Of a DNA stretch of 46,186 bases, positions 9,653-30,096 are shown piece by piece. The notes under the pieces are model-generated. The model did not search any database. It saw only the letters and a list, made by a program, of their open reading frames with translations, and was not told the DNA's origin. The stretch comes from Planctomycetia bacterium. Lineage in GTDB: Bacteria; Planctomycetota; Phycisphaerae; FEN-1346. The DNA lies in the NCBI GenBank assembly GCA_003170085.1, contig PMZT01000036.1, positions 1-46,186 on the forward strand. Reading direction: 5' to 3'. Within the stretch, counting starts at the first letter, position 1; every line of letters starts with the position of its first letter. A program made the translations under genes and the position numbers.

Positions 9653-10960
9653 ATGACACGACTTACCCGTCGCACGTTCCTGAAGGCCGCGGCCTTTGGC
9701 GCCGCAGCGCCTTACATCGTTTCCGGCACCGTCCTCGGAGCCGGCGAGCGCCCGGCCCCGTCGAACCGCATTACCATCGGCAACATCGGCGTCGGCGGCC
9801 GGGGCAACAGCCACATCGGCAGCCTGCTGGAAGAGAAGGACGCCCAGATTCTGGCGGTGTGCGACGTCGAGAAGTCGCATCGCGAGGGCACCAAGGGCCG
9901 CGTCGAGCAGCGCTACGGCCGCGACCAGCCCGGCGGCTACGCCGGGTGCGCATCGTTCAACGATTTCCGCGAGGTCCTGGCGCGGCCCGACATCGACGGC
10001 GTCGTCATCGGCGCCCCGGACCACTGGCACGCCCTGATGTCGGTCATGGCCGCCGAGGCCGGCAAGGACATCTATTGCGAAAAGCCGATGTGTGCCGTGA
10101 TCGGCGACGGCCGCGCGGCCGCCAATGCCGTCAAGCGCTACGGCCGCGTCTTCCAGACGGGCAGCCAGGAACGCTCGGGCGGGGGGCGGTTCGCCTGCGA
10201 ACTCGTGCGCAACGGCTACCTCGGCAAGATTCACACGATCCGGACGTTCCTGCCGATGGAGCCGCACTGCCTGGCGCCGCAGGGCGACGCCTCGCCGCAG
10301 CCGGTGCCCGAGGGCTTCGACTACGACCTCTGGCTGGGGCCGACGCCGTACGAGCCGTACACGGCCAAGCGCTGCCACTTCAACTTCCGCTGGATCACCG
10401 ACTATTCCGACGGCGAACTCACCGACCGCGGGGCGCACGTGAACGACATCGCCCTGTGGGGCGCGGGGCCGCTCCTGGTGGGGCCGGTGGACATCGAGGC
10501 CACGAACGGCAAGTTCCGCCAAGACACGCTGTGGGACGTCCCGATCCAGTTCCACCTTGAGTACACGTATGCCAATGGCATGAAGATCATCTGCGAATCC
10601 GACGGCCAGCGCGGCATCAAGTTCGAGGGCGACAAGGGCTGGGTCTTCGTCGCCATTCACGGCGGCATGCTCACGGCCGAGCCGGCGTCGCTCCTCAAGA
10701 CGGTCCTCGCGCCCGGCGACATCACGCTGCCGCGCACCCGCGGCCACATGCGCAACTGGCTCGACTGCATCAAGACGCGCGAGCTTTGCGTGGCCCCGGC
10801 CGAGGACGGGCACCGCACGGCGTCGTTCTGCCACCTGGGCCTGATGGCGCTCTGGGCCGGACGCAAGCTCAAGTGGGACCTCGAGAAAGAACAGTTCATC
10901 GGCGACCGCGACGCCAACGCGTACGTCACGCGGCCGATGCGGGCGCCGTGGCACCTGTAA
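9653..10960 (+). CDS. Tat-exported Gfo/Idh/MocA oxidoreductase 1
   Basis: A 435-residue NAD(P)-dependent sugar dehydrogenase-type protein. The N-terminus carries a twin-arginine signal (LTRRTFLKAAAFGAAA), so it should be folded with its cofactor and exported. The Rossmann motif GNIGVGGRG is at about 43-51, and the family's catalytic EKP is at 143-145 (YCEKPMCAV). A C-terminal alpha/beta domain includes DRGAHVNDIALW. Related proteins oxidise or reduce a sugar hydroxyl using tightly bound NAD(P). ATG 9653 has AGGAG at 9641-9645; a TATAAT at 9632-9637 may belong to a promoter. The next gene, 19 bases on, is a close paralogue. Confidence 0.9.
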   Translation: MTRLTRRTFLKAAAFGAAAPYIVSGTVLGAGERPAPSNRITIGNIGVGGRGNSHIGSLLEEKDAQILAVCDVEKSHREGTKGRVEQRYGRDQPGGYAGCASFNDFREVLARPDIDGVVIGAPDHWHALMSVMAAEAGKDIYCEKPMCAVIGDGRAAANAVKRYGRVFQTGSQERSGGGRFACELVRNGYLGKIHTIRTFLPMEPHCLAPQGDASPQPVPEGFDYDLWLGPTPYEPYTAKRCHFNFRWITDYSDGELTDRGAHVNDIALWGAGPLLVGPVDIEATNGKFRQDTLWDVPIQFHLEYTYANGMKIICESDGQRGIKFEGDKGWVFVAIHGGMLTAEPASLLKTVLAPGDITLPRTRGHMRNWLDCIKTRELCVAPAEDGHRTASFCHLGLMALWAGRKLKWDLEKEQFIGDRDANAYVTRPMRAPWHL

Positions 10961-10979
10961 GCTCTGTTGGAGGTGAAGC

Positions 10980-12320
10980 ATGGTCAAGCCGCTTAGCATC
11001 ACCCGTCGAGACCTGCTGAGGGGCGCTATTGCCGCCGCCGCGGCGCCTTACGTCGTCTCGGCCACCGTCCTGGGCGCCGGCGACCGCCCTGCCCCGTCGA
11101 ACCGGATCTGCGTGGGCAACATCGGCGTCGGCGGCCGGGGCAACAGTCACATCGGCAGCCTGCTGGAAGAGAAGGACGCCCAGATCCTGTCGGTGTGCGA
11201 CGTCGACAAGACGCATCGCGACAAGACCACGGACCGCGTCGAGCAGCGCTACGGCCGCGACCGGGCCGGCGGCTACGCCGGCTGTAAGTCTTACGCCGAT
11301 TTCCGCGAGGTCCTCGCGCGGCCCGACATCGACGCCATCGTCATCGGCACGCCCGACCACTGGCACGCCCTCATCTCGGTCATGGCAGCCAAGGCCGGCA
11401 AGGACATCTATTGCGAGAAGCCGATGAACGCGGTGATCGCCGACGGCCGCGCTGCCGCCGATGCCGTCAAGCGCTACGGCCGCGTGTTTCAGACGGGCAG
11501 CCAGGAACGCTCGGGCGGCGCGCGGTTCGCCTGCGAACTGGTGCGCAACGGCTACCTCGGCAAGATTCACACCATCCGCACGTTCCTGCCCACCGGCGAC
11601 AAGCACTCCGGCGCCACCGGGCCGATGCCCGTGCCCGAAGGGTTCGACTACGACACGTGGCTGGGCCCGGCCCCGTGGGAGCCGTATCACCCGGCCCGCT
11701 GCCACGGCAACTTCCGGTGGGTCATGGATTACTCCGACGGCGAGCTGACGGACCGCGGGGCGCACGTGAACGACATCGCCCTGTGGGGCGCCGGGCCGCT
11801 CCTGGTGGGTCCGGTCGAGATCGAGGGCCGCGGCACGTTCATCCGCGACCCGCTCTGGAACGTTCCGTACGCGTATCACATTGAGTTCACGTATGCCAAT
11901 GGACTTAAGTTCATCGTCGATAGCAGCGATGCGCCCGGCGGAGTCATCTGTAGCATTACCGGGGCACACCGCGGCATTCTGTTTGAGGGGACCGAGGGGA
12001 AGGTCTTCGTGGCCATCCACGGCGCGGCGCTCGCGGCCGACCCGCCGTCGCTCCTCCGCACGGTCCTGGCGCCCGGCGACATCACCTTGCCGCGCACCCG
12101 CGGGCACATGCGCAACTGGCTCGACTGCATCAAGACGCGCGAGGCCCCCGTGGCCCCGGCCGAGGACGGGCACCGCACGGCGTCGTTCTGCCACCTCACC
12201 CTGATCGCGTGCCTGCTCGGCCGCAAGTTGCGGTGGGACCTCGAAAAGGAGCAGTTCATCGGCGACCGCGACGCCAACGCGTTCGTCACGCGGCCGATGC
12301 GGCCACCGTGGCACTTGTAA
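10980..12320 (+). CDS. Tat-exported Gfo/Idh/MocA oxidoreductase 2
   Basis: A 446-residue paralogue of the preceding protein, highly similar along its whole length. Twin-arginine signal (SITRRDLLRGAIAAAAA), Rossmann motif GNIGVGGRG, catalytic EKP in YCEKPMNAV. The main difference is an extra segment of about 14 residues in the C-terminal domain (around DAPGGVICSITGAHR), near where the substrate pocket is expected, which could mean a different substrate. GGAGGTG precedes the ATG. Co-transcribed with gene 1; a tandem duplication is the simplest origin. Confidence 0.9.
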   Translation: MVKPLSITRRDLLRGAIAAAAAPYVVSATVLGAGDRPAPSNRICVGNIGVGGRGNSHIGSLLEEKDAQILSVCDVDKTHRDKTTDRVEQRYGRDRAGGYAGCKSYADFREVLARPDIDAIVIGTPDHWHALISVMAAKAGKDIYCEKPMNAVIADGRAAADAVKRYGRVFQTGSQERSGGARFACELVRNGYLGKIHTIRTFLPTGDKHSGATGPMPVPEGFDYDTWLGPAPWEPYHPARCHGNFRWVMDYSDGELTDRGAHVNDIALWGAGPLLVGPVEIEGRGTFIRDPLWNVPYAYHIEFTYANGLKFIVDSSDAPGGVICSITGAHRGILFEGTEGKVFVAIHGAALAADPPSLLRTVLAPGDITLPRTRGHMRNWLDCIKTREAPVAPAEDGHRTASFCHLTLIACLLGRKLRWDLEKEQFIGDRDANAFVTRPMRPPWHL

Positions 12321-12322
12321 AG

Positions 12323-12425
12323 AAGGTGCTTGCAGGGTGGCATGCCCAGGCCGTCTGTTGCCTGGGCATGTGGGCGCAACGCCCGTTCGCATGCCCACGC
12401 GAACAGCGGCGTGGGCATGCCACCC
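12323..12425. repeat. Nested inverted repeat with two hairpins
   Basis: GGGTGGCATGCCC (12335-12347) and its perfect inverse (12413-12425) enclose 65 bases. Inside are two further perfect hairpins: CATGCCCAGGC with GCCTGGGCATG (12341-12351/12360-12370) and GCATGCCCACGC with GCGTGGGCATGC (12389-12400/12409-12420). The first 33 bases repeat the sequence at 7870-7902, and GGGTGGCATGCC recurs near 43689. A repeat element or structured transcript; no T-run, so a poor terminator. Confidence 0.75.
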
Positions 12426-12595: not shown

Positions 12596-15589
12596 ATGCG
12601 TTGCTGGACAAAACTGCTCATGGGATTGACGGTAGTGGGCCTGTGCCTGGCGCTGGCGGCCCCCACGGGCCTCGCCGCCGCCAAGGCCAAGAAGGATGCC
12701 TCGCCGGCCGCAACGATCCCCGAGGGCCCCAAGCCCGCCAGCCTCGACGAGGCCTTCACGATCCTCGCCAAGTATGAGTTCGGCCAGAGCCGCGAGGCGC
12801 TCACGATGATCTCCGACGCCCTGCGCGATACGATCAAGGACCCGGCGGCCCGTAAGAAGCTCGTTGACCGCCTGACGGTCCTCCTGCCGTCCGGCGCCAC
12901 GCTCGATGCCAAGCGGTTCGTTTGCCGCCAGCTCAGCATCGTGGGCATGGCCGAGTCGGTGCCGCCGCTGGCGGCGCTGCTGCTCGACAAGGACCTCTCC
13001 GACTATGCCCGGTACGCGGTTGAGCGCATCCCGGTGCCCGAGGCCGAGAAGGCGCTGCTCGACGCGCTGCCCAAGGCCCAGGGCAAGGTGAAGATCGGCA
13101 TCGTCAACTCGCTGGGCGAGCGGCGCGACGCCTCGGCCCTGGCCGCCGTAACCGCCTGCCTGGGCGACGCCGATGCGCAGATCGCCTCCTCGGCGGCGAG
13201 CGCGCTCGGAAAGATCGACGGCTCCGACGCCGCCAAGGCCCTCATGGCCGCCCGCGCCACCGCCAAGCCCGAGGTGCGGCCGGTCATCAACGACGCCCTG
13301 CTCATGGTCGCCGATAAACTCCGCACCGAGAAGAAGGGCGACGAGGCCCTCGCGATTTACCAGGAGATGTACAAGCCCGCCGAGGCCAAGCACGTCCGCA
13401 TCGCGGCCCTGCGCGGCCTGATCGCGTCGGGCGGCGACAAGGCCCTCCAGCTCGTGACCGAAATTCTCGCCGGCGGCGATGCCGACATGCAGGCCGCCGC
13501 CCTGCGGTTCCTCCGCGAGACGTCCGGCCCGGATTCGGCCAAGACCGTCGCGGCCCTGTTGCCCAAGTCGCCGGTCTCGGCCCAGCCGCTGCTGCTGGAC
13601 GACCTGGCGGCGCGCGGCGATGCGACCACACTGCCGGCCGTCATGGCGATGATCAAGTCCGGCGATGCCGCTGTCCGCCTCTCGGCCATCAAGGCCGCCG
13701 GCAAGCTCGGCGATGCCTCGACGCTGACCGTCCTGGTGGAGTACGCCACGGGCGCCGCCGGCCCCGATCAGGACGCCGGCCGTGCGGCCCTCGATCGCCT
13801 GCCCGGCGCCGACGTGAACCCGGCCCTGCTGGGTCTGGCCGAGAAGGGCGATGCCAAGGTTCGCGCCGAGGTCCTCCGCACGCTGGGCGCCCGCCGCGTG
13901 GCAACGGCCGTGCCCGTCGTACTGAAGGCCGCCCAGGATGCCGACGCCGGCGTCCGAGCCGCGGCCCTGTTGTCGCTCGACACGCTGGCCGATGAGAAGT
14001 CGGCCCCGGCCATCGTGCAGATCATCGTGAAGGCAAAGGATCCGAAGGACATCGCGGCGGCCGAGAAGGCCCTCGCGTCGCTGTGCAGCCGCGCTACGAA
14101 CAAGGACGCCTGCGTCGACCCGATTCTGGCGGCGCTGGCGGGTGCCGAGAAGGACGCCAAGGCCGCGCTCATCCGCGCCCTCGGCCGTGCCGGCGGCGCC
14201 AAGGCGCTGGCGGCCGTCAAGGGCCTTGCGAAGGATGCCGTTCCGGAGATTCAGGAAGCCGCGATCCGTTCTCTGACCGACTGGCCGGACGTCAGCGCCG
14301 CCCCCGAGCTCCTGGCGATTGCCAAGGGCGAGGGCAAGACGGCTATCCTGGCGATGCGCGGCTACGTCCGCCTGGCGGCCGGCACCGACGTTGCCGCCGG
14401 CGACAAGATGAAGATGTATAAGGAAGCATGGGACACCGCGAAGCGGCCCGACGAGAAGCGGCTGGTCCTGGGCGGCCTGGGCGACCTGAAGTCAACGGCG
14501 GCCCTCGAAATGCTCACGACGTGCCTCGATGACCCGGCCCTGGGCGCCGAGGCCTGCGCCGCAACCGTGAAGGTGGCCAAGGCCCTCAACAACGGCCCGA
14601 AGCCGCAGATTCAGGCCGCCATGACCAAGGTCCTTGCCCTGACGAAAGACAACAACCTCAAGAAGGAGGCCGATGACATGCTGAAGGCAGCCGGCGGCGC
14701 TCCGGCGCCCAAGTCGAAGGTGAACAAGGCCCCGCGCATCGCGGTGTACAAGGCCCCGGCGGACGCCCCGAAGGTCGATCTTTCACCCGCCGACGCGATC
14801 GGCTGGCACCTGGCGGCGCAGGCGTACACGTTCCGCGCGGTGAGCTTCTCCGAGACGATCGACATCCTCAAGAAGATCGGCATGAAGTATGTCGAAATCT
14901 ATGGTGGCCAGAAGTTGACGCCCACCTCGGACGTCAAGGTCGGCGTGGGCATGACCGACGAGCAGATCGCCGAGATGAAGAAGATCGCGGCCGACGGCGG
15001 CGTCCGGATCGTCAACTTCGGCGTGACCGGAATCGGCGGCGATGAGGCGAGCGCCCGCAAGACCTTCGAGTTCGGCAAGAAAGTGGGCCTCGAGGTGATC
15101 GTTACGGAAGAGCACGAGGACCGGTTCCCGATGCTCGCCAAGCTGGCCGACGAGTACAAGATCAACCTCTCGCTGCACAATCACCCGAAGCCGTCGTACT
15201 ACTGGGACGTCGATCACGTGCTGAAGGCCTCCGAGGGCCAGACCCGCATCGGTTCGTGCGCCGATACCGGCCACTGGATGCGTTCGGGCTTCGTGCCGCT
15301 CGATTGCCTGAAGAAGCTCAAGGGCCACATCATCAGCCTGCACTTCAAGGACCTCGACAAGATGGGGCCGGTCGAGAAGGGCCAGCCCGGCCCGAAAGAC
15401 GTGCCGTGGGGCACCGGCGCGGGCAACGCCAAGGGCATGCTGACCGAACTGTACGCGCAGGGCTTCAAGGGCGTGTTCTCGATCGAGTACGAGACTGGCG
15501 GCGGCCAGGAGTTGATCGACAACGTGACGAAGTGCGCCGAGTTCTTCGCGGCCACCGCAGCCGAGCTTGGCAAGGGCGGCAAGAAGTAA
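12596..15589 (+). CDS. Secreted HEAT-repeat/sugar isomerase fusion
   Basis: A 997-residue protein in three parts. Residues 1-25 are a signal peptide (KLLMGLTVVGLCLALAAPTG). About 30-710 is a long alpha-solenoid of HEAT-like repeats (e.g. AALASVTACLG-like helices; ALRFLRETSGPDSAKTVAAL). About 735-995 is a xylose-isomerase-like/AP-endonuclease-2 TIM barrel (IGWHLAAQAYTF, YVEIYGG, NLSLHNHPKPSYYWDVDHV, GSCADTGHW, ISLHFKDLDKMG), with the His, Asp and Glu residues expected at the metal site. Such barrels usually isomerise or epimerise (keto) sugars; here the enzyme is exported and tethered to a protein-binding scaffold. AGGAG precedes ATG 12596. Followed by a strong terminator. The substrate is unknown; neighbours suggest a keto sugar. 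Confidence 0.85.
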   Translation: MRCWTKLLMGLTVVGLCLALAAPTGLAAAKAKKDASPAATIPEGPKPASLDEAFTILAKYEFGQSREALTMISDALRDTIKDPAARKKLVDRLTVLLPSGATLDAKRFVCRQLSIVGMAESVPPLAALLLDKDLSDYARYAVERIPVPEAEKALLDALPKAQGKVKIGIVNSLGERRDASALAAVTACLGDADAQIASSAASALGKIDGSDAAKALMAARATAKPEVRPVINDALLMVADKLRTEKKGDEALAIYQEMYKPAEAKHVRIAALRGLIASGGDKALQLVTEILAGGDADMQAAALRFLRETSGPDSAKTVAALLPKSPVSAQPLLLDDLAARGDATTLPAVMAMIKSGDAAVRLSAIKAAGKLGDASTLTVLVEYATGAAGPDQDAGRAALDRLPGADVNPALLGLAEKGDAKVRAEVLRTLGARRVATAVPVVLKAAQDADAGVRAAALLSLDTLADEKSAPAIVQIIVKAKDPKDIAAAEKALASLCSRATNKDACVDPILAALAGAEKDAKAALIRALGRAGGAKALAAVKGLAKDAVPEIQEAAIRSLTDWPDVSAAPELLAIAKGEGKTAILAMRGYVRLAAGTDVAAGDKMKMYKEAWDTAKRPDEKRLVLGGLGDLKSTAALEMLTTCLDDPALGAEACAATVKVAKALNNGPKPQIQAAMTKVLALTKDNNLKKEADDMLKAAGGAPAPKSKVNKAPRIAVYKAPADAPKVDLSPADAIGWHLAAQAYTFRAVSFSETIDILKKIGMKYVEIYGGQKLTPTSDVKVGVGMTDEQIAEMKKIAADGGVRIVNFGVTGIGGDEASARKTFEFGKKVGLEVIVTEEHEDRFPMLAKLADEYKINLSLHNHPKPSYYWDVDHVLKASEGQTRIGSCADTGHWMRSGFVPLDCLKKLKGHIISLHFKDLDKMGPVEKGQPGPKDVPWGTGAGNAKGMLTELYAQGFKGVFSIEYETGGGQELIDNVTKCAEFFAATAAELGKGGKK

Positions 15590-16077: not shown

Positions 16078-17490
16078 ATGGCTCACACGGAAACCAATAG
16101 TGGCGGTCTCAGCAGGCGGGACTTCTTGAAGGTAACGGGCGCCGTCGGAGCGGGGATGGTCCTGGCCCCCGTTATCCTCGGCGAAGAGGCCAAGAACGCC
16201 TCGAAGACCGTTAACGTCGGCTTCATCGGCGTCGGCACGCAAGGCCGCGTGCTCCTGACGAACGCCCTGAAGATCCCGAACCTTCGCTTCGTCGGCGTCG
16301 CCGACATCTGGCCCTACAACCAGGGCTACGCCGTCCGCACCCTCAAGAAGTACAACCACCCGGCGAACGGCTACATCGAGTACGCCGAGATGCTCGACAA
16401 GGAAAAGGACATCGACGCGGTCATCGTGGCCACGCCCGACTGGAAGCACGCCGAGTGCACCGTCGCCGCCCTCAAGGCCGGCAAGCACGTTTACTGCGAG
16501 AAGGAGATGTCGAACGACATCGCCCTCGCCAAGGAAATGGTCGTCACGTCGCAGCAGACGAAGAAGCTGCTGCAGATCGGCCACCAGCGCCGCTCGAACC
16601 CGCGCTACCAGTTGGCCATCGACTACATGCAGAAGAAGAACTGCTGCGGCATGTTGACGTTCCTGTCGGCCGGCTGGAGCCGCTCGAAGCGTCTGGACGT
16701 GGGTTGGCCGAAGGGTCAGGAGCTCGACGAGGCCGCGCTCAAGAAGTACGGCTACGACACGATGGCCCGCTTCCGCAACTGGCGCTGGTACAAGAAGTTC
16801 TCGGGCGGCCCGATCGCCGACCTGGGCTCGCACCAGATCGACATCTTCAACTGGGCGCTCAAGGCATCGCCCGCGGCCGTCATGGCGGCCGGCGGCTGCG
16901 ATTTCTACGAGGGCATCGAGTGGTACGACAACATCTCGGCCCTGTATGAGTGGGATAACGTGGATCAGGGCGGTAAGAAGCACACGGTGCGCGGCTACTA
17001 CCAGCTCCTGAGCACGTCGAGCCACGGCGGCTACTCCGAGACATTCATCGGCACCGACGGCTCGCTCATCATTTCCGAGAACGCCGGAACGGGCGGCATG
17101 CGCCGCGAGCAGGAGGCCGCCGAGGCCGACTGGGAAAAGGAACTGCCGAAGCCGAGCGGTCCGAACGCCGCCCCTGCCGCCGCCCCCAAGGTCGAAGAGA
17201 AGAAGGCGGAGACGAAGGACGGGGCGAAGAAGGACGCCGACGACGACATCAAGGTCGGCCACTCGGTTCCGGCCCCCGGCCGCTACTTCGGGCCGATCAC
17301 GGTCGCCGGCTTCAACAAGTCGGAGCACCTGCCGCACATCGAGAACTTCATCGCCGCGATTCGCGAAGGCGCCGCGCTCACCTGCCCGGGCGAGGTCGGC
17401 TACGATACGGCCGTCACCGTGCTCAAGGTGAACGATGCCATCGTGGCCGCCAAGCGCCTGGAGTTCAAGCCCGAAGAGTTCAAGGCGTAA
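16078..17490 (+). CDS. Tat-exported Gfo/Idh/MocA oxidoreductase 3
   Basis: A 470-residue protein of the same superfamily as the genes at 9653 and 10980 but clearly divergent. Twin-arginine signal GLSRRDFLKVTGAVGAG; Rossmann motif GFIGVGTQG. The usual EKP is EKE here (YCEKEMSND, 141-143): the catalytic-type lysine is kept but the proline is lost. DLGSHQIDIFNW in the second domain is typical. A low-complexity Ala/Lys/Glu insertion lies at about 370-405 (APAAAPKVEEKKAETKDG). GAGGAGG precedes ATG 16078. Only 16 bases separate it from a multihaem cytochrome gene, suggesting its electrons are handled by the cytochrome c/b pair. Confidence 0.9.
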   Translation: MAHTETNSGGLSRRDFLKVTGAVGAGMVLAPVILGEEAKNASKTVNVGFIGVGTQGRVLLTNALKIPNLRFVGVADIWPYNQGYAVRTLKKYNHPANGYIEYAEMLDKEKDIDAVIVATPDWKHAECTVAALKAGKHVYCEKEMSNDIALAKEMVVTSQQTKKLLQIGHQRRSNPRYQLAIDYMQKKNCCGMLTFLSAGWSRSKRLDVGWPKGQELDEAALKKYGYDTMARFRNWRWYKKFSGGPIADLGSHQIDIFNWALKASPAAVMAAGGCDFYEGIEWYDNISALYEWDNVDQGGKKHTVRGYYQLLSTSSHGGYSETFIGTDGSLIISENAGTGGMRREQEAAEADWEKELPKPSGPNAAPAAAPKVEEKKAETKDGAKKDADDDIKVGHSVPAPGRYFGPITVAGFNKSEHLPHIENFIAAIREGAALTCPGEVGYDTAVTVLKVNDAIVAAKRLEFKPEEFKA

Positions 17491-17506
17491 CATCGGGGGT
17501 AACACC

Positions 17507-19471: not shown

Positions 19472-20161
19472 ATGACCGGGTTCCAACTCTACGCAGCCGT
19501 TGCCATCGTCGCGGTCCTCGTGGCCATGCCGATTCACTATGTCCTCTTCGCCCGCCGGCAGCCGCATCCCGGCTTGGGCGAGCGCCACGTGAAGCGTTAT
19601 AACGTGTGGGAGCGCCTGGTCCACCTGGCCCTGCTCGCCAGCTTCATCGTGCTGGCCTGGACGGGCTTCTCGGCGTCCATCGGCTGGGGCGGACCCATGC
19701 ATGGATACCTGTTGATGATCCATACCACGTCGGGCGCCGTGTTCGCCGTGACCGTGGGCATCATGTTCCTGACGTGGGCGGCCGATCACGCTTTCACGAA
19801 GTGCGACCTCCAGTGGATCCGCGACGGCGGATGCCTCGCCACCAAGGAGCTTCCGGCGGGCCGCTTCAGCGCCGGCGACAAGATGTACTTCTGGCTGGCC
19901 GGACTCCTGACGCTCGTGGCCCTGCTCTCGATGCTCCTCAGCATGATCCCCGTGCTCGGCACCGGCGGCCAGTTGCTCATGTACAACGTGCACCGCTGGT
20001 CAACGCTGGTGCTCGTGCTGGCGACCCTCTGGCACGCGTACGTGACGCTGGCGAAGCCGGGGGCGCTTACGGCGATCCTGACCGGCCGCGTGAGCGCCGC
20101 ATGGGTCAAGCGCTTCCATCCGCTATGGGGCGCCGGCCATGACGCAACCGGTCGCAAATAA
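19472..20161 (+). CDS. Cytochrome b subunit (FdnI/cyt b561-like)
   Basis: A 229-residue inner-membrane protein with about five hydrophobic segments and histidines suited to bind two b haems: ERLVHLALLASF, MHGYLLMIHTTSGAVF and VHRWSTLVLVLATLWHAY. This is the layout of the di-haem b subunit of formate dehydrogenase/thiosulfate reductase-type complexes, which link a periplasmic redox subunit to the quinone pool. It follows the multihaem c gene by 18 bases and overlaps the next gene by 23, indicating co-translation. Direction of electron flow is not deducible from sequence. Confidence 0.85.
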   Translation: MTGFQLYAAVAIVAVLVAMPIHYVLFARRQPHPGLGERHVKRYNVWERLVHLALLASFIVLAWTGFSASIGWGGPMHGYLLMIHTTSGAVFAVTVGIMFLTWAADHAFTKCDLQWIRDGGCLATKELPAGRFSAGDKMYFWLAGLLTLVALLSMLLSMIPVLGTGGQLLMYNVHRWSTLVLVLATLWHAYVTLAKPGALTAILTGRVSAAWVKRFHPLWGAGHDATGRK

Positions 20162-21111: not shown

Positions 21112-21218
21112 CGCCGTTGACGATTGTGGCCTTCCCCGCGTGGGTCCGTTTGAAATCTCAAATTTGAGATTTCAGATTGGAGAGAGGACCCACCCCACAC
21201 GAGCCGCTAGTCCTTCAG
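21112..21218 (-). repeat. 107-bp direct repeat, copy 2
   Basis: Second copy. Palindrome at 21152-21173, flanked by GTGGGTCC (21140-21147) and GGACCCAC (21186-21193), giving a larger stem. The right end overlaps the last codons and stop of the DUF1080 gene. Between the copies lies a separate hairpin GTGGGTGC-TCT-GCACCCAC (21088-21106). The structure sits between convergent operons and could terminate both. Confidence 0.85.
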
Positions 21219-22250: not shown

Positions 22251-22291
22251 GTGCATTCTCCTGGGATTGTCTCTCTCGTTCACACCCGACA

Positions 22292-22343
22292 ACTTGTGAC
22301 TTTGCACGGTCGGCGCAGCGGGTACGGAGACCCGCCGCGCAAA
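22292..22343. repeat. Partial copy D of the palindromic element
   Basis: ACTTGTGACTTTGC matches the left end of the element at 15649-15880, and GGTACGGAGACCCGCCGCGC matches its interior near 15770-15790, with the sequence between deleted. Inserted between two DUF1080 genes. Confidence 0.65.
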
Positions 22344-22385
22344 CCCTGGCAAACTTCGTCGGCGTTTCACGCCCGACGCGCCGGC

Positions 22386-23438
22386 CTACTTCGCCTCGTC
22401 CTTGAGTTCCACGATCCAGATGTTGCGGAACCGCACGGGATGCTGATGGTCCTGCAGCCGGATCGGCCCGGCCTTCACTTCCGGCCGGCTCTTGGCCGAG
22501 CCCGTGGGGGCCTTGATGTCGGTGTTCTCCTGCACCTTCACGCCGTTTTGCACGGTCGTGACCGTCGCATCCTTGATCTTCTTGCCGTCGGCATCGAACC
22601 GCGGCGCGCGGAACGTGAACTCGTACGTCTGCCACGAGCCGGGCGGGAAGCACGCGTTCACCAGCGGGGCCGTCTGCGTGTAGATGGCGCCGCACTGGTG
22701 GGCTTCCGGCTTGATGCCGTAGGAATCGAGGACCTGCATCTCATAGACGTCATGCAGGAAGATGCCGCTGTTGCCGCGGCCCTGGCCCTTGCCGGTGGGC
22801 TCGAACGGGATACGGAATTCGGCGTGCATCTGGAAATCGCCGAACGTCTGCTTCGACTTGATGTCGCCGCCCTTGACCTGGATGCTGCCGTCGTCCATCG
22901 CGACCCACTGGCACGGCTCGCCCTTGAGTTGCGTCCACGCCGCGGTGTCGGACTTTTTGCCTTCCTCGTACGCCAGCAGGACGACCGCGCCGGCCGGCGG
23001 CTTCTGGAGTTCCGTCGGCGACTTCTTCACCGTGAACTTGAGATCGACCTTGCCGGCCTTCGACTCGGCCTTGAGCTGGCCGTTCTCGATCGTGCCGGTC
23101 CACGCATCGTCACCGCCCGAGAACGTCACTTTGCTCGCGTCGCCCTTGCCGGGCAGATCGACCCACGCGAACTTCTCGCCGGCCGCCGGCGCGCGGAGCA
23201 CGATCCGGTACGACGGGTCCTCTCGCACCACGTTGGCCTCGGCGGCAACGTCCTTGCCGCCGGTGTTTAAGGTGCCCACGTAATCGCCCACCATCTTGTC
23301 GGGCGGCGACTCGACCGGGGGCGCCTTGGGCTCCGACGACTTGGCGGCGCCCTTGCTCGCCTTCTCGGCGGCCATCACCGGCATCGCCGCAACCACGCAC
23401 AACGCCAGCCCCACGAGCAGCATCGTCCGGATACTCAT
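22386..23438 (-). CDS. Secreted DUF1080 family protein 2
   Basis: A 350-residue paralogue of its neighbours. Signal peptide (TMLLVGLALCVVAAMPVMAA), then an N-terminal domain with VGDYVGTLNTGGKDVAAEAN instead of the DDGIQG start, and the DUF1080 fold with GQGRGNSGIFLHDVYEMQVL, SWQTYEFTFRAPRF and NGVKVQEN. AGGGAGAGG precedes the ATG. Lies between paralogues 1 and 3, separated from the former by 135 bases holding a partial repeat element. Probably acts outside the cytoplasmic membrane on a keto sugar or glycoside. Confidence 0.87.
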   Translation of the reverse strand: MSIRTMLLVGLALCVVAAMPVMAAEKASKGAAKSSEPKAPPVESPPDKMVGDYVGTLNTGGKDVAAEANVVREDPSYRIVLRAPAAGEKFAWVDLPGKGDASKVTFSGGDDAWTGTIENGQLKAESKAGKVDLKFTVKKSPTELQKPPAGAVVLLAYEEGKKSDTAAWTQLKGEPCQWVAMDDGSIQVKGGDIKSKQTFGDFQMHAEFRIPFEPTGKGQGRGNSGIFLHDVYEMQVLDSYGIKPEAHQCGAIYTQTAPLVNACFPPGSWQTYEFTFRAPRFDADGKKIKDATVTTVQNGVKVQENTDIKAPTGSAKSRPEVKAGPIRLQDHQHPVRFRNIWIVELKDEAK

Positions 23439-23477
23439 TCGCCTCTCCCTTTCCGTGATGAGTTCTTTGACACCCCG

Positions 23478-24548
23478 CTACTTGCCGTCCTTCAGTTCCA
23501 CAAGCCAAACGTTCCGGAACCGCACCGGATTGCCATGATCCTGAAGCATCAGCGGCGCGGGCGACACGATCGGGCCGGCGACGCCGGCGGTCGTCACGTG
23601 ATCGATCTTCACGTTCTCATGAATCTTGATGCCGTTATGAATCACCGTGATGGTCGCCGGCGTGACGATCTTGCCGTTCTCGACCTTGGGGGCGTGGAAC
23701 GTGATGTCATACGTCTGCCACCGGTCCGGCGGCAGGCTGGCGATCACCTTGGGCACCGCCACGCTGTAGATGCCGCCGCACTCGTTGTCCTTCGGCGCCA
23801 GGCCGAACGAGTCGAGGACCTGCACCTCGTAGCGGCTCTGGAGATACACGCCGCTGTTGCCGCGCCCCTGCCCCCGCGCCGCCGGCATGTACGGGTTGCG
23901 GAACTCGACGTGCAGTTGCACATCGGTAAACGCCTGCTTGGTCTTGACGTTGCCGCCCTTGACGAGCAGGCTGCCGTCGTCCTGTGGCACCCACGGGCAC
24001 GGCTTGTCGCCGTTCAGGCTGACCCACGCATCCGTCGTGGGCGGCTTGCCTTCCTCAAACGGCAGAAGGACGATCGCACCGGCGGGCGGTTTCTGAAGCT
24101 CGGCCGGCGACTTGCGGACCTCCCACTTCATGTCGAACTTGCCGCTCTTCGATTCGGCGACGAGCGACCGCCCGCCCTCAATCGTGCCCTTCCCTTCGGC
24201 ATCGCCGGCCTTGCTCGCCAGCGGAACCTGCTTGCCTTCGGCCTTGCCGTTGAGCTCGACGCGGACGGCCTTGTCGCCCTCACCCGCCGTGAGGACCGCG
24301 CGGAAACTGCCGCCGCCCTCGCCAATGACCTTGGCCTCGGCCTTCATGCCGGCGTTCTGGCCGGCCGGCGTGTAGGTTCCGTTATACTCGCCCTGGATGC
24401 CATCGTCCGGCTCCTCGCCGGGCTTGGGGGCCGCGGGCTTGGCGGCCTTCTCGGCAGCGGCAGCCGCTACGGCGTGGACGCCCAGGAGGCAGGCGCCGAG
24501 ACCCAGGGTCAACAGGCACATCGCCAGAATCGTTGATGCACGCTTCAT
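23478..24548 (-). CDS. Secreted DUF1080 family protein 3
   Basis: A 356-residue paralogue. Signal peptide at residues 1-30 (ILAMCLLTLGLGACLLGV), linker, N-terminal domain starting DDGIQGEYNGTYTPAGQ, then DUF1080 with GQGRGNSGVYLQSRYEVQVL, RWQTYDITFHAPKV and NGIKIHEN. AGGAG six bases before ATG 24548 fixes the start. The cysteine in LGLGACLLG is not a clear lipobox. Only 37 bases after the ApbE gene, so part of the same transcript. Confidence 0.87.
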   Translation of the reverse strand: MKRASTILAMCLLTLGLGACLLGVHAVAAAAAEKAAKPAAPKPGEEPDDGIQGEYNGTYTPAGQNAGMKAEAKVIGEGGGSFRAVLTAGEGDKAVRVELNGKAEGKQVPLASKAGDAEGKGTIEGGRSLVAESKSGKFDMKWEVRKSPAELQKPPAGAIVLLPFEEGKPPTTDAWVSLNGDKPCPWVPQDDGSLLVKGGNVKTKQAFTDVQLHVEFRNPYMPAARGQGRGNSGVYLQSRYEVQVLDSFGLAPKDNECGGIYSVAVPKVIASLPPDRWQTYDITFHAPKVENGKIVTPATITVIHNGIKIHENVKIDHVTTAGVAGPIVSPAPLMLQDHGNPVRFRNVWLVELKDGK

Positions 24549-24585
24549 CGTTCGCTCCTTGAATCGCAGGCGTTGCGGCCGGGAA

Positions 24586-25542
24586 TCAAGACTCCCATTT
24601 TCCAAATCGGAGGACCTTGCGCCCACTAGAATCTTTCGTGATCAGCATGGCGGAGGTGTCGGGATGGTTCCTGACGTACGCCTCCACCTCGGCGGGCGAC
24701 ATGATAAAGAACGCGGTCGACAGGCAATCGGTGATCGTGGCCGAGGTTGCGGCAGCCCATGAACCCACGTTCGCCGCGGCCGGCCGGCCCGTGCGTGGAT
24801 CGATGATGTGCGGGTTGCCCGGCGGCATGGCCGAGCCGCTCAGCGACCGTTCCTTGAGGAGCACGCTGCCGAGCGTTTGCGACTCGTCCTCCGGGTCCCT
24901 CAGCGACACGCGCCAGCCGTCGCGGCCGGGGGGCGCTCCGAACGCCAGCACGCTCGACGTGCCGCCGTTGACGAGCGCCGCCTTGATGCTCCACTCCTTC
25001 AGCAGCGCGACCATCTGGTCCACCGCGTAGCCCTTGCCCACGCCGCCGAGGTCGATGCTCACGCCGTCGGCCTTCACGCCGACGAGGTGTTCCGACTCGC
25101 GAATGTCCAGGAGGTACATGCCGGTCCGCGCACGGGCGGCCGCCAGTTCCTCCTCGGTGGGCGTGCGGGGCTTCTTGTCGGGATCGCGCCAGCAGGCCAG
25201 CAGCGAGCCGATGGTCACGTCGAAGGCCCCGCCGGTCTCGGCGTTGACCTTGGCGGCCGCCTTGATGCAGTCCATCGTGGCGATGCCCACGCGGACGCCC
25301 TGGCCCGCGTGAAGGGCGTTGATCTGCGAGATGTCGCTCGTGGAACTGTAGCGGTTGAGCTCGTGGTGCAGGTTATCAAGCTCGGCGAACGCGGCGTCGG
25401 CCGCCTGGCGGGCGTACTCGGCATCCTCACCGGCGATGAGAATCTCGAACACCGAGGCCATCGCCACGTGCGAGAAGCGATGGACCGGCGACGAGGGCTT
25501 GCTGTCCGTGGTCACCGAGAAGGCATCGGGTATCCGGCTCAT
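24586..25542 (-). CDS. apbE: FAD:protein FMN transferase (ApbE family)
   Basis: A 318-residue enzyme that transfers FMN from FAD to a Ser/Thr of target proteins, covalently flavinylating them. Family motifs: HVAMASVFEILIAG at the N-terminus, NRYSSTSDISQIN, IDLGGVGKGYAVD, LVNGGTSSVLAFG, and HIIDPRTGRPAA with Asp/Thr residues for Mg-FAD binding. No signal peptide is obvious, although many family members act in the periplasm. The ATG overlaps the stop of the upstream glycosyltransferase gene (ATGA). No protein in the window shows the usual flavinylation motif, so the target is unknown. Confidence 0.9.
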   Translation of the reverse strand: MSRIPDAFSVTTDSKPSSPVHRFSHVAMASVFEILIAGEDAEYARQAADAAFAELDNLHHELNRYSSTSDISQINALHAGQGVRVGIATMDCIKAAAKVNAETGGAFDVTIGSLLACWRDPDKKPRTPTEEELAAARARTGMYLLDIRESEHLVGVKADGVSIDLGGVGKGYAVDQMVALLKEWSIKAALVNGGTSSVLAFGAPPGRDGWRVSLRDPEDESQTLGSVLLKERSLSGSAMPPGNPHIIDPRTGRPAAANVGSWAAATSATITDCLSTAFFIMSPAEVEAYVRNHPDTSAMLITKDSSGRKVLRFGKWES

Positions 25543-27146
25543 GGTTGCCGCTCCGCCTGCTTGCCGCCGGCGGCCTTCGGTTCCTGCGAGGCCACAAATT
25601 TCTGCCACAGGCCGTCCTGAACGTACACCACCATGAGCACGCTCGGCCTCAGGCCGAACATCCCCGTCCGGAAATACGGGCCGCGCAGCCGCGCGTCGAG
25701 TTCTTCCTGGACCTCCTTGGCGACGATCATAACCGACGCCGGCGGATCGTCCGGGTTCGCGGGCATCTCGTGATACCAGCCGATGTGATCGGGGTCGAAC
25801 TTCCGGAGATACCACGGCAGCGGCCAGTAATTCTCGGGCGTGATGACCTTGATGATCATCTCGCGGCCGTCGGGCGCGACGGCGGCCACACGCTCGACCA
25901 GCCGCGCCATTTCCACGCCATCGGTCGAGGTGGGCGGATAGTTGTACGGGTTCCGCTGGTCGGCGTAGTAGCGGAAATTCAACTGGTACGATTCCCAGCC
26001 CAGGTGGACGGCCAGCGCCGCCAGCACCAGGCACATGGCCCCCCGGCTCCAGCGGCAGGGCATCCACCTCACGAGCGCCACGGCGCCCACGCCCGCCAAG
26101 AGGATCATCCCGTGGAGGAAGCTGAGCATGCACCACGGCGTCTTGTACGGAATCATGGCATACGCGGCCGTCAGGGCGAGCGTGTAGAAACCGAGGAACC
26201 GCACGAGCGGCCGGTGGGCGTCGGGGATGTCATTCTTCCGCAGCGCAGCCACGAAGCCGACGATCGCCAGGCCCACGATAAGCCCCTCTGTCCACGTGAA
26301 CCCGCGGGCCGGGTGGTCGCAGATGAGCATCGCCAGGTAGAAGTACCACGCGTGCGTGTGGATTCCGTTCTCGCCCGCCTTGCCGGCATAGGACGTGTAG
26401 CTCAGGAGCGAATCAAGCGGCCCCCGCCAGTTGGCTCCGAACGAGGAGAAGAGCAGGCACGCCACGATGATCGCGGCGGCAATGCCCAGCACGAGCGGCC
26501 GCCAGCGCAGGCATTCGCGGAAGGCGAGGCCCCGGCCGTCGCGCAGTCGCGCCCAGAGATGCGTGAGCACGAGGCCCGCCACCATCGCGGCCCCGGCCAG
26601 AACCCACGTTTCCTTCGTGGCGTGCATGAGGCCGATCGAGACGCCCGCCGCCACGGCCCACGCCGCCGATTTCGTTTGCGTGTATCGCCAGGCCGACACA
26701 ATGGCCCCCGCCGTGAAAAATACGAGGAGCATCTCCTGGACGTAATAGCGGCTGTAGAAGACCATCGCGGGCGAGAGAGCCGTCAGGACCCCCGCGCAGA
26801 CCGCCGCGGGCATGCCAAGGCCCTTGCGGAGCGGCCAGAGGAGCAGCACGAGCGCCACGCCAAAGATCGCGGGGACGATGCGGTACTGGAACTCGTCGGT
26901 CTCGGCGAAGGTCCTGGCCTGGCCAAGCCAGAGCGACGGCAGGGTCAGGTAATAAAGGCTGGGGCCGTGATGCTCGCCGGGGTCGTAACGGTAGGTGCCG
27001 TCGTCAAACAGTTCGCCGGTCTTGACGGCCTGGTTGGCCTCGTCGGCGTGCATCGGCCGCAAAGCCAACCGTGGCAGACGGAGCGCTAACGCCCCGACTG
27101 CCACGGCCAGGAGACAGATTCCGAAAACCGCCGCATGGCGTTTCAT
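25539..27146 (-). CDS. Agl23/GT39-like membrane glycosyltransferase
   Basis: A 535-residue integral membrane protein with roughly ten hydrophobic segments. Near the start of the first loop is LRPMHADEANQAV, the acidic DE motif typical of lipid-phosphosugar-dependent GT-C enzymes (PMT/ArnT/Agl23 group). A soluble C-terminal domain (about 380-535) follows the last helices. Such enzymes transfer a sugar from a polyprenyl-phosphate donor to a substrate outside the membrane. The start and stop both overlap neighbouring genes by ATGA. The glycosyltransferase at 20139 could supply the lipid-linked donor. Confidence 0.78.
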   Translation of the reverse strand: MKRHAAVFGICLLAVAVGALALRLPRLALRPMHADEANQAVKTGELFDDGTYRYDPGEHHGPSLYYLTLPSLWLGQARTFAETDEFQYRIVPAIFGVALVLLLWPLRKGLGMPAAVCAGVLTALSPAMVFYSRYYVQEMLLVFFTAGAIVSAWRYTQTKSAAWAVAAGVSIGLMHATKETWVLAGAAMVAGLVLTHLWARLRDGRGLAFRECLRWRPLVLGIAAAIIVACLLFSSFGANWRGPLDSLLSYTSYAGKAGENGIHTHAWYFYLAMLICDHPARGFTWTEGLIVGLAIVGFVAALRKNDIPDAHRPLVRFLGFYTLALTAAYAMIPYKTPWCMLSFLHGMILLAGVGAVALVRWMPCRWSRGAMCLVLAALAVHLGWESYQLNFRYYADQRNPYNYPPTSTDGVEMARLVERVAAVAPDGREMIIKVITPENYWPLPWYLRKFDPDHIGWYHEMPANPDDPPASVMIVAKEVQEELDARLRGPYFRTGMFGLRPSVLMVVYVQDGLWQKFVASQEPKAAGGKQAERQP

Positions 27147-27907
27147 TTTTCGGGCGTGCCGTAAGCCTCAACTTCGATGTAATGATTCTGGTCGTTCGAG
27201 GTGTTGCCCTTGCTGTACAGGCGAATGTAGCGGCCCGTGACGCCCTTGGCATCCATCAGACGGCCGCGGAAGTCCTCGATGTACTCCAGATCCTTGCCGA
27301 TGCCGAGACCCGAGGAGTTGTCAAAATCGTTGTTGTACACGGTCTTGACGTTCTCGATGAAGTCCGGATCGTCGGCCACCTGGACGATGACGTCGTGATA
27401 GACGCGGCCTTCGCCATGATAATGCCACACGAGCATGGCATAGATCTTGACCTTCTGCTTAAGGTCGATCTGAACCCACTGCTTCCCAGGTCCAAGTTCG
27501 ACGAAGCTGCCGTCGGTGCCTTCCTTGTCGCCATCGGTGATGAGCTTGAGTTCGCCGATGATCGGCTCGGAATCGCTGGAGGTCACGGGCTTGCCGGCGG
27601 CGAGGTTCGCGGAGCCCTCGGGGGCGAAGAACGGATCGCGGTTCTTGTCGACGTACTTCTCGAGGGTCGGCGACGGCTTGATGTTCTTGGGCGTGCCCTC
27701 GAACATGGCCTTGGGCATCTTGATGGGCAGCGGCACGAGCTTCTCGCCGTTCGGGCCGGTCTTCGCGGCCGGCTGATCCTTGGCCGCCTCGGCCGGCTTG
27801 GCCGCATCCGCGGCCGTCGCCTGAAGGGCCGGTCCCATGACAAAGGCAAGGCCCGCCAGGCCCGCCGCCAGAGCCACCGCCAACGCCAAATACCTTCTCG
27901 TCTTCAT
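27143..27907 (-). CDS. Secreted discoidin-like (F5/8 type C) protein
   Basis: A 254-residue exported protein. Signal peptide (LALAVALAAGLAGLAFV), an Ala/Lys/Pro-rich linker, then from about residue 90 a beta-sandwich resembling coagulation factor 5/8 type C (discoidin) domains: NLAAGKPVTSSDSEPIIGEL, WVQIDLKQKVKIYAM, GRYIRLYSKGN, YIEVEAYG. Such domains bind carbohydrate or surfaces. AGGGGAAGAG precedes ATG 27907. First gene of the operon that runs to the DUF1080 genes. Probably a glycan-binding accessory protein. Confidence 0.8.
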   Translation of the reverse strand: MKTRRYLALAVALAAGLAGLAFVMGPALQATAADAAKPAEAAKDQPAAKTGPNGEKLVPLPIKMPKAMFEGTPKNIKPSPTLEKYVDKNRDPFFAPEGSANLAAGKPVTSSDSEPIIGELKLITDGDKEGTDGSFVELGPGKQWVQIDLKQKVKIYAMLVWHYHGEGRVYHDVIVQVADDPDFIENVKTVYNNDFDNSSGLGIGKDLEYIEDFRGRLMDAKGVTGRYIRLYSKGNTSNDQNHYIEVEAYGTPEK

Positions 27908-28159
27908 ACGCTCTTCCCCTGCTCCTGTGGACATTGCGTCCGGTTCATCCCCGCGGGATGGTTCCGCCCATCCTCACCTATACAACCGGTTCCGGGGCCT
28001 TGTGTGTCGCTAGAAAGTAGCGTCCGAACCCCCCGGCGTCAAGCCCGAAGACGCCCGCGCTTGCTCTCAGATTCTCCGGGCCTCTGTACTCTTCTCGCGG
28101 TTCAATCAGTGATCACACAGGAAAAATCCGGTCGAGCCGCCTGATTTTGAGGCAGATGC

Positions 28160-28276: not shown

Positions 28277-29251
28277 ATGTTGCGTAAATGGGTCGTACCG
28301 GCTGTCGTCGGATCGTTGGCGCTGTTGTTCGCGGTATCCGCAAGCATCCAGGCGGCCGAGAAGGCCAAGGCCGAGCCCAAGCCCCCCACCGAGGCCAAGC
28401 CCGACGAGATCGAGAAGATCACCGCGGCGGCGCCGGACACGGCTTTCGTCAAGCCCGCCCAACCGCGCAAGCTGCTCGTGTTCAGCCTCACGAAAGGGTT
28501 CCCGCACAGTTCCGTGGGCGTCGGCGGCAAGGCGTTCGAGATCATCGGCAAGAAGACCGGCGCCTGGGAGACGGTCATCACGACCGACGTGTCGATCTTC
28601 GCCCCGGACAAGCTCAAACAGTTCGACGCCGTGATGATGAACAACACGACCGGCAACCTCATCGACGACCCGGCCCTGAAGCAGAGCCTGCTGGACTTCG
28701 TCAAGGGCGGCAAGGGCATCGGCGGCGCACATTCCGCAACGGATGCCTTCTATGACAAGTGGCCGGAATACGGCGAGATGATGGGCGGCTTCTTCAAGGG
28801 GCACCCGTTCCACAAGATTTCGGTGAAGGTCGATGATCCGAAGAGCCCGCTGACCGCCATGTTCGAGGGCAAGGGCTTCGAGTTCAGCGACGAGATTTAC
28901 ACGTTCAAGGACCCGTACTCGCGCGAGAAGCTGCACATCCTCCTCAGCGTCGACTGGGAGAACGCGAGCCTGCCGAAGGGCAACCGCGACGATAATGATT
29001 ACGCCCTGGCATGGATTCACGATTTCGGCAAGGGCCACGTCTTCTATTGCGCGTTCGGCCATCAGCACGAGGTTTTCTGGAATCCCACGATCCTCAAGTT
29101 CTACCTGGCCGGCATCCAGTACATGATGGGCGACCTGAAGGCCGATGCCACGCCCACCGCGAAGCTGAAGATCGAAGCGGCCCCCGGCCCGAAGCTGGCG
29201 CCTCAGCCTGAGAAGAAACCGGCCGAAAAGAAGCCGGCCGAGAAGAAGTAA
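28277..29251 (+). CDS. Secreted ThuA-like domain protein
   Basis: A 324-residue exported protein. Signal peptide VVGSLALLFAVSASIQA, then a ThuA-like domain (glutamine-amidotransferase-like fold) with KLLVFSLTKGFPHSSVGVGG, GGKGIGGAHSATDAFYDKWP, MGGFFKGHPFH and HVFYCAFGHQHEVFW. ThuA proteins accompany Gfo/Idh dehydrogenases in trehalose/3-ketotrehalose metabolism (ThuAB of Sinorhizobium). The C-terminus ends in a repetitive Lys/Pro tail (PEKKPAEKKPAEKK). AAGGAGAGG precedes the ATG. Cotranscribed with the DUF1080 gene that follows. Confidence 0.87.
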   Translation: MLRKWVVPAVVGSLALLFAVSASIQAAEKAKAEPKPPTEAKPDEIEKITAAAPDTAFVKPAQPRKLLVFSLTKGFPHSSVGVGGKAFEIIGKKTGAWETVITTDVSIFAPDKLKQFDAVMMNNTTGNLIDDPALKQSLLDFVKGGKGIGGAHSATDAFYDKWPEYGEMMGGFFKGHPFHKISVKVDDPKSPLTAMFEGKGFEFSDEIYTFKDPYSREKLHILLSVDWENASLPKGNRDDNDYALAWIHDFGKGHVFYCAFGHQHEVFWNPTILKFYLAGIQYMMGDLKADATPTAKLKIEAAPGPKLAPQPEKKPAEKKPAEKK

Positions 29252-29270
29252 CCCCCAAGGATACCGGAGA

Positions 29271-29302
29271 CCTCCGGCGGCGCGCGATCGCGCTGCCGGA
29301 GG
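29271..29302 (+). other. Intercistronic hairpin
   Basis: CCTCCGGC and GCCGGAGG enclose a second self-complementary stretch (GGCGCGCGATCGCGC). No T-run, so not a typical terminator; could set the relative expression of the flanking genes. Confidence 0.5.
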
Positions 29303-29322
29303 ACTCACACAAGGAGACACTC

Positions 29323-30096
29323 ATGCGTCGCATCGTTCTGGTAGCACTGGCTGTGGCGAGCCTGGCAGCGCTGGGCCTGGTTTCCGTCTATGCGGCACCG
29401 GCCGAGACACCCGCTGCAAAGCCCGCGGCCCCGGCCGCCAAGGCCGAGACGCCCGCCCCCGCCGGCTCGGGCCTCAAGCCCGATGCCGAAGGCTGGATCA
29501 CCCTGTTCGACGGCAAGAACCTCGATGCCTGGCAGGAGCCGCCGGCCAAGAAGTGGAAGGTCGTTGACGGCATCATGACGTGGGACAAGGGTTGCGGCGA
29601 CATCTGGACGAAGGACAAGTTCGGCGATTTCACGATCGACCTCGAGTTCAAGTGCGCCCTGGAAGACAAGGCCGCCGGCATCCACTCGACCAACAGCGGC
29701 GTGTTCCTCCGGTCGCCCGAGGGTGAGAAAAACTGGCTCCAAGGCTCCATCGAAATCCAGATCCTCGCCCCGCCGGCCAGCGGCAAGGCCGACAAGCACA
29801 CCACCGCCGCCGTCTACGATTGCCTCGCGCCAAGCGTCTTCGCCGACAAGCCCGCCGGCGAGTGGAACCACATGGTCCTCACCGCCAAGGGCAACTCGAT
29901 CACGATCGAGCTCAACGGCAAGAAGGTCATCGAGACCAGCCTCGACCACTGGACCACGGCGGGCGAGAACCCCGACGGCACGAAGAACAAGTTCAAGACG
30001 GCCTACAAGGACATGGCCAAGGTCGGATACCTCGGCCTTCAGGACCACGGCGCCCCGGTGTGGTATCGCAACATCAAGATCAAGCCGCTCAATTAG
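29323..30096 (+). CDS. Secreted DUF1080 family protein 4
   Basis: A 257-residue exported protein: signal peptide (IVLVALAVASLAALGLVSV), short Pro/Ala linker, then a single DUF1080 domain (GWITLFDGKNLDAWQEPP, STNSGVFLRS, SIEIQILAPP, EWNHMVLTAKGN, LNGKKVIETS, GLQDHGAPVWYRNIKIK). Unlike paralogues 1-3 it has no extra N-terminal domain and it starts with the classic LFDGKNLD motif, so it belongs to a different branch. AGGAG precedes ATG. A strong terminator follows. Confidence 0.9.
   Translation: MRRIVLVALAVASLAALGLVSVYAAPAETPAAKPAAPAAKAETPAPAGSGLKPDAEGWITLFDGKNLDAWQEPPAKKWKVVDGIMTWDKGCGDIWTKDKFGDFTIDLEFKCALEDKAAGIHSTNSGVFLRSPEGEKNWLQGSIEIQILAPPASGKADKHTTAAVYDCLAPSVFADKPAGEWNHMVLTAKGNSITIELNGKKVIETSLDHWTTAGENPDGTKNKFKTAYKDMAKVGYLGLQDHGAPVWYRNIKIKPLN

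Follow-up and report, generated by a model that had tools for sequence, protein, structure and literature searches.

A conserved planctomycete locus that may couple extracytoplasmic sugar oxidation and keto-glycoside cleavage to a cytochrome outlet

The DNA analyzed here, a stretch of 46,186 nucleotides from contig PMZT01000036.1 (the window), represents most of a 49.3-kb contig in a planctomycete assembly of 4.47 Mb with a completeness of 88.9%. It contains a group of sugar-oxidation, glycan and redox genes arranged in three strand groups: GFO1-GFO2-HEATTIM-GFO3-MHC-cytb-GT2 on the plus strand, F5F8a-Agl23-ApbE-K3-K2-K1 (in transcription order) on the minus strand, and ThuA-K4 on the plus strand. 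The names stand for Gfo/Idh oxidoreductases (GFO1-3), a heptaheme cytochrome c (MHC), a b561/FdnI-like protein (cytb), an F5/8C protein (F5F8a) and DUF1080 proteins (K1-K4), whereas L-numbers and G-numbers designate loci and genomes of the comparison set. Export signals were judged by eye and with a simple scan.

A first-pass annotation had placed an envelope keto-glycoside system here, and all the genes it named were found between positions 9653 and 30096 with the families it gave. The three Tat-exported Gfo/Idh proteins, the secreted isomerase fusion, the four secreted DUF1080 proteins and the ThuA-like protein were each recovered by domain searches, and redox and lipid-linked glycosyltransferase genes accompany the enzyme set as described. 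One of its two glycan-type binding proteins, F5F8a (27143-27934), lies in this interval, but the second (35573-37054) lies outside it. The proposal that every step takes place outside the cytoplasm was not sustained, since neither GT2 nor ApbE has an export signal. Two elements were absent from that annotation: the GFO3 and MHC pair with cytb, which is the most conserved part, and the fixed trio F5F8a-Agl23-ApbE.

GFO1 (9653-10960, plus strand; PF01408, PF19051), the tandem GFO2 (10980-12320, plus strand; PF01408 and a C-terminal Gfo domain) and GFO3 (16078-17490, plus strand; PF01408) all exceeded the PF01408 cut-off, have C-terminal Gfo domains and carry the twin-arginine motifs TRRTFL, TRRDLL and SRRDFL. 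The PDB entries closest to GFO2 were 8tdf and 8tdh. GFO3 represents a distinct subfamily with the conserved motifs VYCEKEMSN (including EKEMSN), GHQRRSNP and LLQIGHQRRSNPRY, in which the NAD-binding motif and the catalytic-lysine region are intact.

MHC (17501-19453, plus strand; start codon not settled) carries seven heme motifs, one CX3CH and six CX2CH, all invariant in the alignments, and a C-terminal transmembrane helix. Its fold gave no PDB match at E<=0.001, the top hits being meaningless, and the best NCBIfam score of an MHC orthologue was 23.5 bits, far under the cut-offs. Assignment as an octaheme tetrathionate reductase (TIGR04315, cut-off 375) was rejected because the window protein and its relatives have seven hemes and not eight; the orthologue of L068 scored 16.9 bits and the window MHC gave no match. 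The adjacent cytb (19472-20161, plus strand; PF01292, and TIGR01583 at 76 bits, below the cut-off) suggests, from its family, contact with quinone. A scan of the proteins between 7989 and 37054 found no GMC flavin dehydrogenase subunit of the LacABC type. A second GFO3-MHC pair is present in the same genome (L049, contig C62, 14487-18836), accompanied by an ApbE of its own encoded on the other strand; its GFO3 and MHC are 52% and 48% identical to the window proteins. In addition, nine genomes from another planctomycete family, f38 (G185, G212, G250, G267, G325, G350, G361, G371 and G401), encode a cytochrome whose match to MHC covers only about residues 277-623.

The DUF1080 proteins K1 (21207-22253, minus strand; PF06439, 129 bits), K2 (22386-23438, minus strand; 140 bits; 4qhz, E 1e-43), K3 (23478-24548, minus strand; 120 bits) and K4 (29323-30096, plus strand; 169 bits) are all secreted, and their PF06439 scores of 119-169 bits compare with a cut-off of 26.8. 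A QDH motif is retained in K1-K4, and the alignment of K4 to PDB 8tda includes the QDHG region; over all DUF1080 domains, many members differ at QDH or were cut. From its position, the QDH histidine would correspond to the one mutated in the Bacteroides thetaiotaomicron lyase (H275N, PMC13273386). Compared at the level of family residues, K1-K4 are candidate enzymes for the cleavage or hydration of 3-keto-glycosides. K1-K3 (21207-24551) also share an N-terminal extra domain of about 90 residues with no Pfam match.

The secreted 997-aa protein HEATTIM (12596-15589, plus strand) joins HEAT repeats (PF13646) to a xylose-isomerase-like TIM barrel (PF01261) in one open reading frame (ORF). The closest entry for the barrel in a PDB sequence search was 3p6l (E 7e-61), and its DxGH motif is kept in 30/30 homologues. 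HEATTIM, the secreted ThuA-like protein (28277-29251, plus strand; PF06283, 142 bits) and K1-K4 are encoded separately in the window, whereas stop-to-stop ORFs of relatives include 28 TIM-DUF1080 and five HEAT+DUF1080 fusions. Fusions were confirmed with Pfam in L068 (PF01261+PF06439), L114 (PF13646 with two PF06439) and L138 (ThuA-DUF1080, a single case). These fusions of TIM, HEAT and ThuA with DUF1080 indicate that the catabolic parts belong together. Upstream of GFO1 lies an NCS1-like permease gene, perm (7989-9518, plus strand; start uncertain), with a weak match to PF13520; its homologue in L143 matches PF02133. An NCS1-like or MFS permease is located between cytb and F5F8a in 27/45 relatives that have both in that order.

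On the minus strand, F5F8a (27143-27907 or 27143-27934) encodes a secreted CBM32-like (carbohydrate-binding module) protein with Pfam scores just below the cut-off; its AlphaFold2 model finds matches among CBM32 and fucose-binding modules (E 1e-8 to 1e-6), and in relatives it is often a lipoprotein. Agl23 (25539-27146, minus strand) is an Agl23/PMT-like membrane glycosyltransferase (TIGR03663, 191 bits against a cut-off of 126). ApbE (24586-25542, minus strand; PF02424, 186 bits) resembles flavin mononucleotide (FMN) transferases and has no signal peptide in the window or in relatives; of three apbE genes in the genome, two lie next to GFO3-MHC pairs. The cytoplasmic GT2 (20139-20912, plus strand; PF00535) is similar to polyprenyl-phosphate-sugar synthases, with only sub-cut-off matches to dolichyl/polyprenyl-phosphate transferases.

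F5F8a domains were also found in other settings. In L149 (130-1759; same genome, contig C42), L156 (3133-4834), L160 (4637-8359) and L159, as many as four tandem copies make up the extracytoplasmic part of anti-sigma-like membrane proteins, and an ECF-like (extracytoplasmic function) sigma factor gene, read by eye, lies directly upstream in L149, L156 and L160. In these proteins the domain may sense the pathway substrate. L143, a GFO3 locus lacking MHC, encodes a DUF6807 (PF14100) protein fused to F5F8a (7291-8889, plus strand) between a permease and Agl23.

The flanks of the window contain further genes. A NarL-type regulator, histidine kinases and a sigma factor are located upstream (134-7844), outside the conserved module. 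Downstream (33820-37054), a secreted GH35/GH42-like beta-galactosidase (NF051902, 449 bits, just below the cut-off of 500) adjoins the second F5/8C protein and is followed by tRNA-Val, possibly as another glycan locus.

The whole genome contains 21 DUF1080 and 67 Gfo/Idh genes, numbers that would favor a chance grouping, without shared function, of sugar genes that are abundant in planctomycetes. In the 20.4-kb interval, four DUF1080 genes were observed against 0.10 expected (Poisson 3e-6), and three Gfo/Idh genes against 0.31 (4e-3); local density alone is weak evidence because tandem duplicates contribute to it. Chance clustering is contradicted by the conserved gene order and the co-occurrence across phyla described below, and we give it almost no credence.

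Conservation was examined in MHC neighborhoods from 20 regions of the class and then in the best 80 of 297 MHC relatives in named genomes, with taxa as labelled by the depositors. The 80 loci came from Planctomycetota (mostly Phycisphaerae), Omnitrophota, Bacteroidota, Calditrichota, KSB1, Kiritimatiellota, Verrucomicrobiota, Ignavibacteriae and others; relatives of the same family or class were planctomycete metagenome-assembled genomes, many labelled Phycisphaerae or Sedimentisphaerales. The usual order was (Gfo/Idh)n-TIM-DUF1080-GFO3-MHC-cytb-permease-F5F8a-Agl23-ApbE, with GT2 on the opposite strand. In 64/67 loci, the gap between MHC and the end of an upstream Gfo gene, nearly always GFO3, was under 400 bp. 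Among the 40 fully covered loci (7.5 kb or more on either side), GFO3 was present in 38, cytb in 35, and F5F8a, Agl23, ApbE and another Gfo in 32 each, while DUF1080 was found near MHC in 24, compared with about 6% expected from genome density. A search of the 80 loci for further conserved genes gave nothing beyond permeases, FGGY kinases, additional Gfo/Idh and TIM proteins, and unrelated genes. Thus, the co-conservation that the first-pass annotation had set as its test was strong, and it extended far beyond the genome of origin.

Because similarity to MHC was the basis for selecting the loci, these percentages hold for MHC loci; no such bias affects the profile over genomes. In 150 genomes of the class, MHC occurred in 33, Agl23 in 36, F5F8a in 36 and GFO3 in 32. 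MHC and Agl23 shared 31/150 genomes (Fisher 1.5e-24, a test that ignores phylogeny, although about ten families are represented), and MHC and GFO3 shared 30/150 (8e-26). In the single-contig genome G023, about 2.15 Mb separate GFO3 and MHC, yet both are retained. In a phylum-level sample, an MHC match was detected in 29/294 genomes. Based on this co-conservation, the natural unit is, as judged from gene content, a predicted keto-glycoside pathway together with a dedicated electron-transfer and lipid-sugar module.

Taken together, the reading that we favor, as slightly more likely than not, is an extracytoplasmic pathway of sugar oxidation and keto-glycoside cleavage coupled to its own electron outlet. 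The Gfo/Idh enzymes would be loaded with NAD in the cytoplasm and exported folded via Tat, and would oxidize a hydroxyl of a sugar or glycoside to a ketone, at C3 by analogy. DUF1080 proteins and/or TIM barrels would remove the aglycone by elimination and add water to the glycal, the permease would probably import the keto-sugar or the freed sugar, and F5F8a would keep the glycan near the site. Since the enzymes would be exported folded with NAD, NADH could not leave; the NAD of GFO3 would be reoxidized without a second sugar, its electrons passing to MHC, cytb and quinone, perhaps through a flavin placed with the help of ApbE. The tightness of the GFO3-MHC-cytb link suggests such an outlet to the quinone pool, and with menaquinone as acceptor the sugar/ketone couple is sufficiently low. 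To our knowledge, the NADH of exported enzymes is in known cases reoxidized by a second substrate, and the known enzymes of keto-sugar chemistry either recycle the hydride or are flavoenzymes. As the least certain step, GT2 and Agl23 would probably make or attach a lipid-linked sugar for surface assembly. The substrate, oxidation at C3, the way in which electrons flow and the functions of ApbE, Agl23 and GT2 are inferred.

Several results weigh against this pathway. About 40% of the full loci have no detectable DUF1080 nearby. GFO1, GFO2 and GFO3 scored 138, 146 and 95 bits against NF058561 (glycoside 3-dehydrogenase, BT_2158 family), whose cut-off of 750 was not reached, and their assignment as BT_2158-type enzymes was rejected. 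No flavoprotein bridge from NADH to heme was visible in the window, and no FMN_bind protein was found in the genome (DUF2271 and DUF3570 were not searched genome-wide). The motif [ST]GA[ST] was conserved in none of the core protein alignments, the window proteins giving loose matches only in GFO2, HEATTIM, K1 and MnmA. Lacking both a signal peptide and an FMN_bind substrate, ApbE therefore counts as an orphan apbE as PMC8238504 uses the term. Finally, L143 and L148 keep GFO3, F5F8a, Agl23 and ApbE without MHC, and the cytochrome is therefore not obligatory. In L148, an FMN_bind domain (PF04205 above the cut-off; RnfG/NqrC-like, TGAS) fused to F5F8a (3305-4531, minus strand) adjoins GFO3 in the place of MHC. 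Other such fusions were not seen, the remaining matches being weak and mostly of stand-alone ORF size. In favor of the pathway, the single case of L148 gives a hint that the slot next to GFO3 could belong to an electron carrier, heme or flavin; L143 has neither MHC nor such an FMN_bind domain.

The absence of MHC from L143 and L148 would also fit a redox-neutral pathway of the Bacteroides kind, in which Gfo/Idh enzymes retaining a bound cofactor oxidize the glycoside and later reduce the keto-sugar while MHC, cytb and ApbE serve another, only co-regulated respiration. Such a pathway is consistent with the closeness of GFO2 to 8tdf/8tdh, with NF058561 as the best NCBIfam match of GFO1 and GFO2 (far below its cut-off), and with the several Gfo/Idh copies per locus, which would suit oxidation plus reduction. 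However, GFO3 sits next to MHC in almost every locus, and the two also co-occur in genomes where they are not linked, a relationship too tight for MHC to be a bystander, and we regard the redox-neutral explanation as unlikely.

The anatomy of the locus does not fix the direction of electron flow, and the same genes could run from quinol through cytb and MHC to Gfo/Idh, with keto-sugars as an electron sink. The companions look catabolic, however (DUF1080, TIM, permease, and an FGGY kinase near some loci), and NAD reduction by quinol is uphill, which makes this reverse flow very improbable. An alternative centered on the envelope is that GT2 and Agl23 load a lipid-linked sugar onto an acceptor and GFO3 and DUF1080 edit the glycan, catabolism being secondary. 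The trio F5F8a-Agl23-ApbE is contiguous in 44 loci, with GT2 close in 30, and it persists without MHC, which speaks for glycan biosynthesis or modification; against this, permeases and lyase/hydratase-type enzymes are frequent neighbors and the fusions unite catabolic domains, and we consider such a role quite unlikely.

Within the favored coupling of keto-glycoside cleavage to a cytochrome outlet, a more specific proposal is put forward only tentatively: a new class of respiratory sugar dehydrogenase, spread over bacteria of the PVC (Planctomycetes-Verrucomicrobia-Chlamydiae) and FCB (Fibrobacteres-Chlorobi-Bacteroidetes) groups, in which a Tat-exported Gfo/Idh protein would deliver electrons to a heptaheme cytochrome c/cytochrome b quinone reductase via flavin that a cytosolic ApbE attaches to some substrate. 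Planctomycetes and their relatives have dozens of DUF1080 and Tat Gfo/Idh genes without known purpose. The conserved locus names the partner genes, presents an orphan ApbE, and offers a concrete answer, the cytochrome outlet, to how an NAD-dependent enzyme outside the cytoplasm might dispose of its hydride. If true, an electron-yielding route of glycan use would be defined for many uncultured lineages.

The 3-keto-glycoside pathway of B. thetaiotaomicron (BT2156-BT2160), reportedly published in Nature in 2024, is said to comprise secreted Gfo/Idh dehydrogenases and a DUF1080 lyase/hydratase, and structures 8tdf/8tdh (Gfo/Idh) and 8tda (DUF1080) presumably stem from work on it. The window likewise encodes secreted Gfo/Idh and DUF1080 proteins, and the matches of GFO2 and K4 include 8tdf/8tdh and 8tda. 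In contrast, its Gfo/Idh proteins score far below the NCBIfam cut-offs (pathway families NF058561 and NF058563), and its module co-conserves a heptaheme cytochrome c, cytochrome b, ApbE, Agl23, GT2 and a CBM-like protein. The B. thetaiotaomicron DUF1080 lyase (Angew. Chem. 2024, cited in PMC13273386) eliminates 3-keto-O-glycosides, and its H275N variant is deficient in glycal hydration (PMC13273386). In Agrobacterium, the TIM barrels AtOGE and AtHYD with a Gfo oxidoreductase carry out the elimination and, on preliminary evidence, the hydration of 3-keto-glucosides (PMC10628242). TIM-barrel enzymes accompany Gfo/Idh there as in the window, but the window barrel is exported and fused to HEAT (to DUF1080 in relatives), and its PDB search gave 3p6l, 4kw2, 3lmz and 3tva, not AtOGE.

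With Caulobacter LacABC the module would have in common a membrane-bound periplasmic 3-oxidation followed by a secreted DUF1080 protein, whereas the window dehydrogenase is of the Gfo/Idh type and its cytochrome has seven hemes. LacA is a flavoenzyme, and cytochrome c is the electron acceptor of LacABC. In addition to LacABC with its periplasmic 3-oxidation, Caulobacter requires a DUF1080 protein to use lactose (PMC9007349). ApbE-dependent extracytosolic flavin electron transfer (PMC8238504, PMC11334425) likewise involves apbE beside redox proteins, and L148 has FMN_bind next to GFO3; the window ApbE differs in that it lacks a signal peptide and that no FMN_bind substrate was found in its genome, and an FMN_bind-like substrate with [ST]GA[ST], by which ApbE systems are recognized, was seen only in L148. 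Octaheme tetrathionate reductase and other multiheme cytochromes share with MHC a multiheme c-type protein next to a b-type membrane protein, but MHC has seven hemes and no fold match, and the best score of an orthologue was far below the cut-offs. Planctomycetes are known to be rich in DUF1080 proteins, which have been proposed to act on xanthan (PMC5673643). No description of the combined locus was found in the literature searched, most subscription papers lying outside the search. Of the combined system, which the earlier annotation suggested may be undescribed, oxidation and cleavage are in the literature for BT2157-2159 of B. thetaiotaomicron, OGE/HYD of Agrobacterium and LacABC with DUF1080 of Caulobacter, but their coupling to a cytochrome module was not found described. 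As far as we have found, the chemistry of the locus is known from these systems, and its link to the cytochrome module is the new part.

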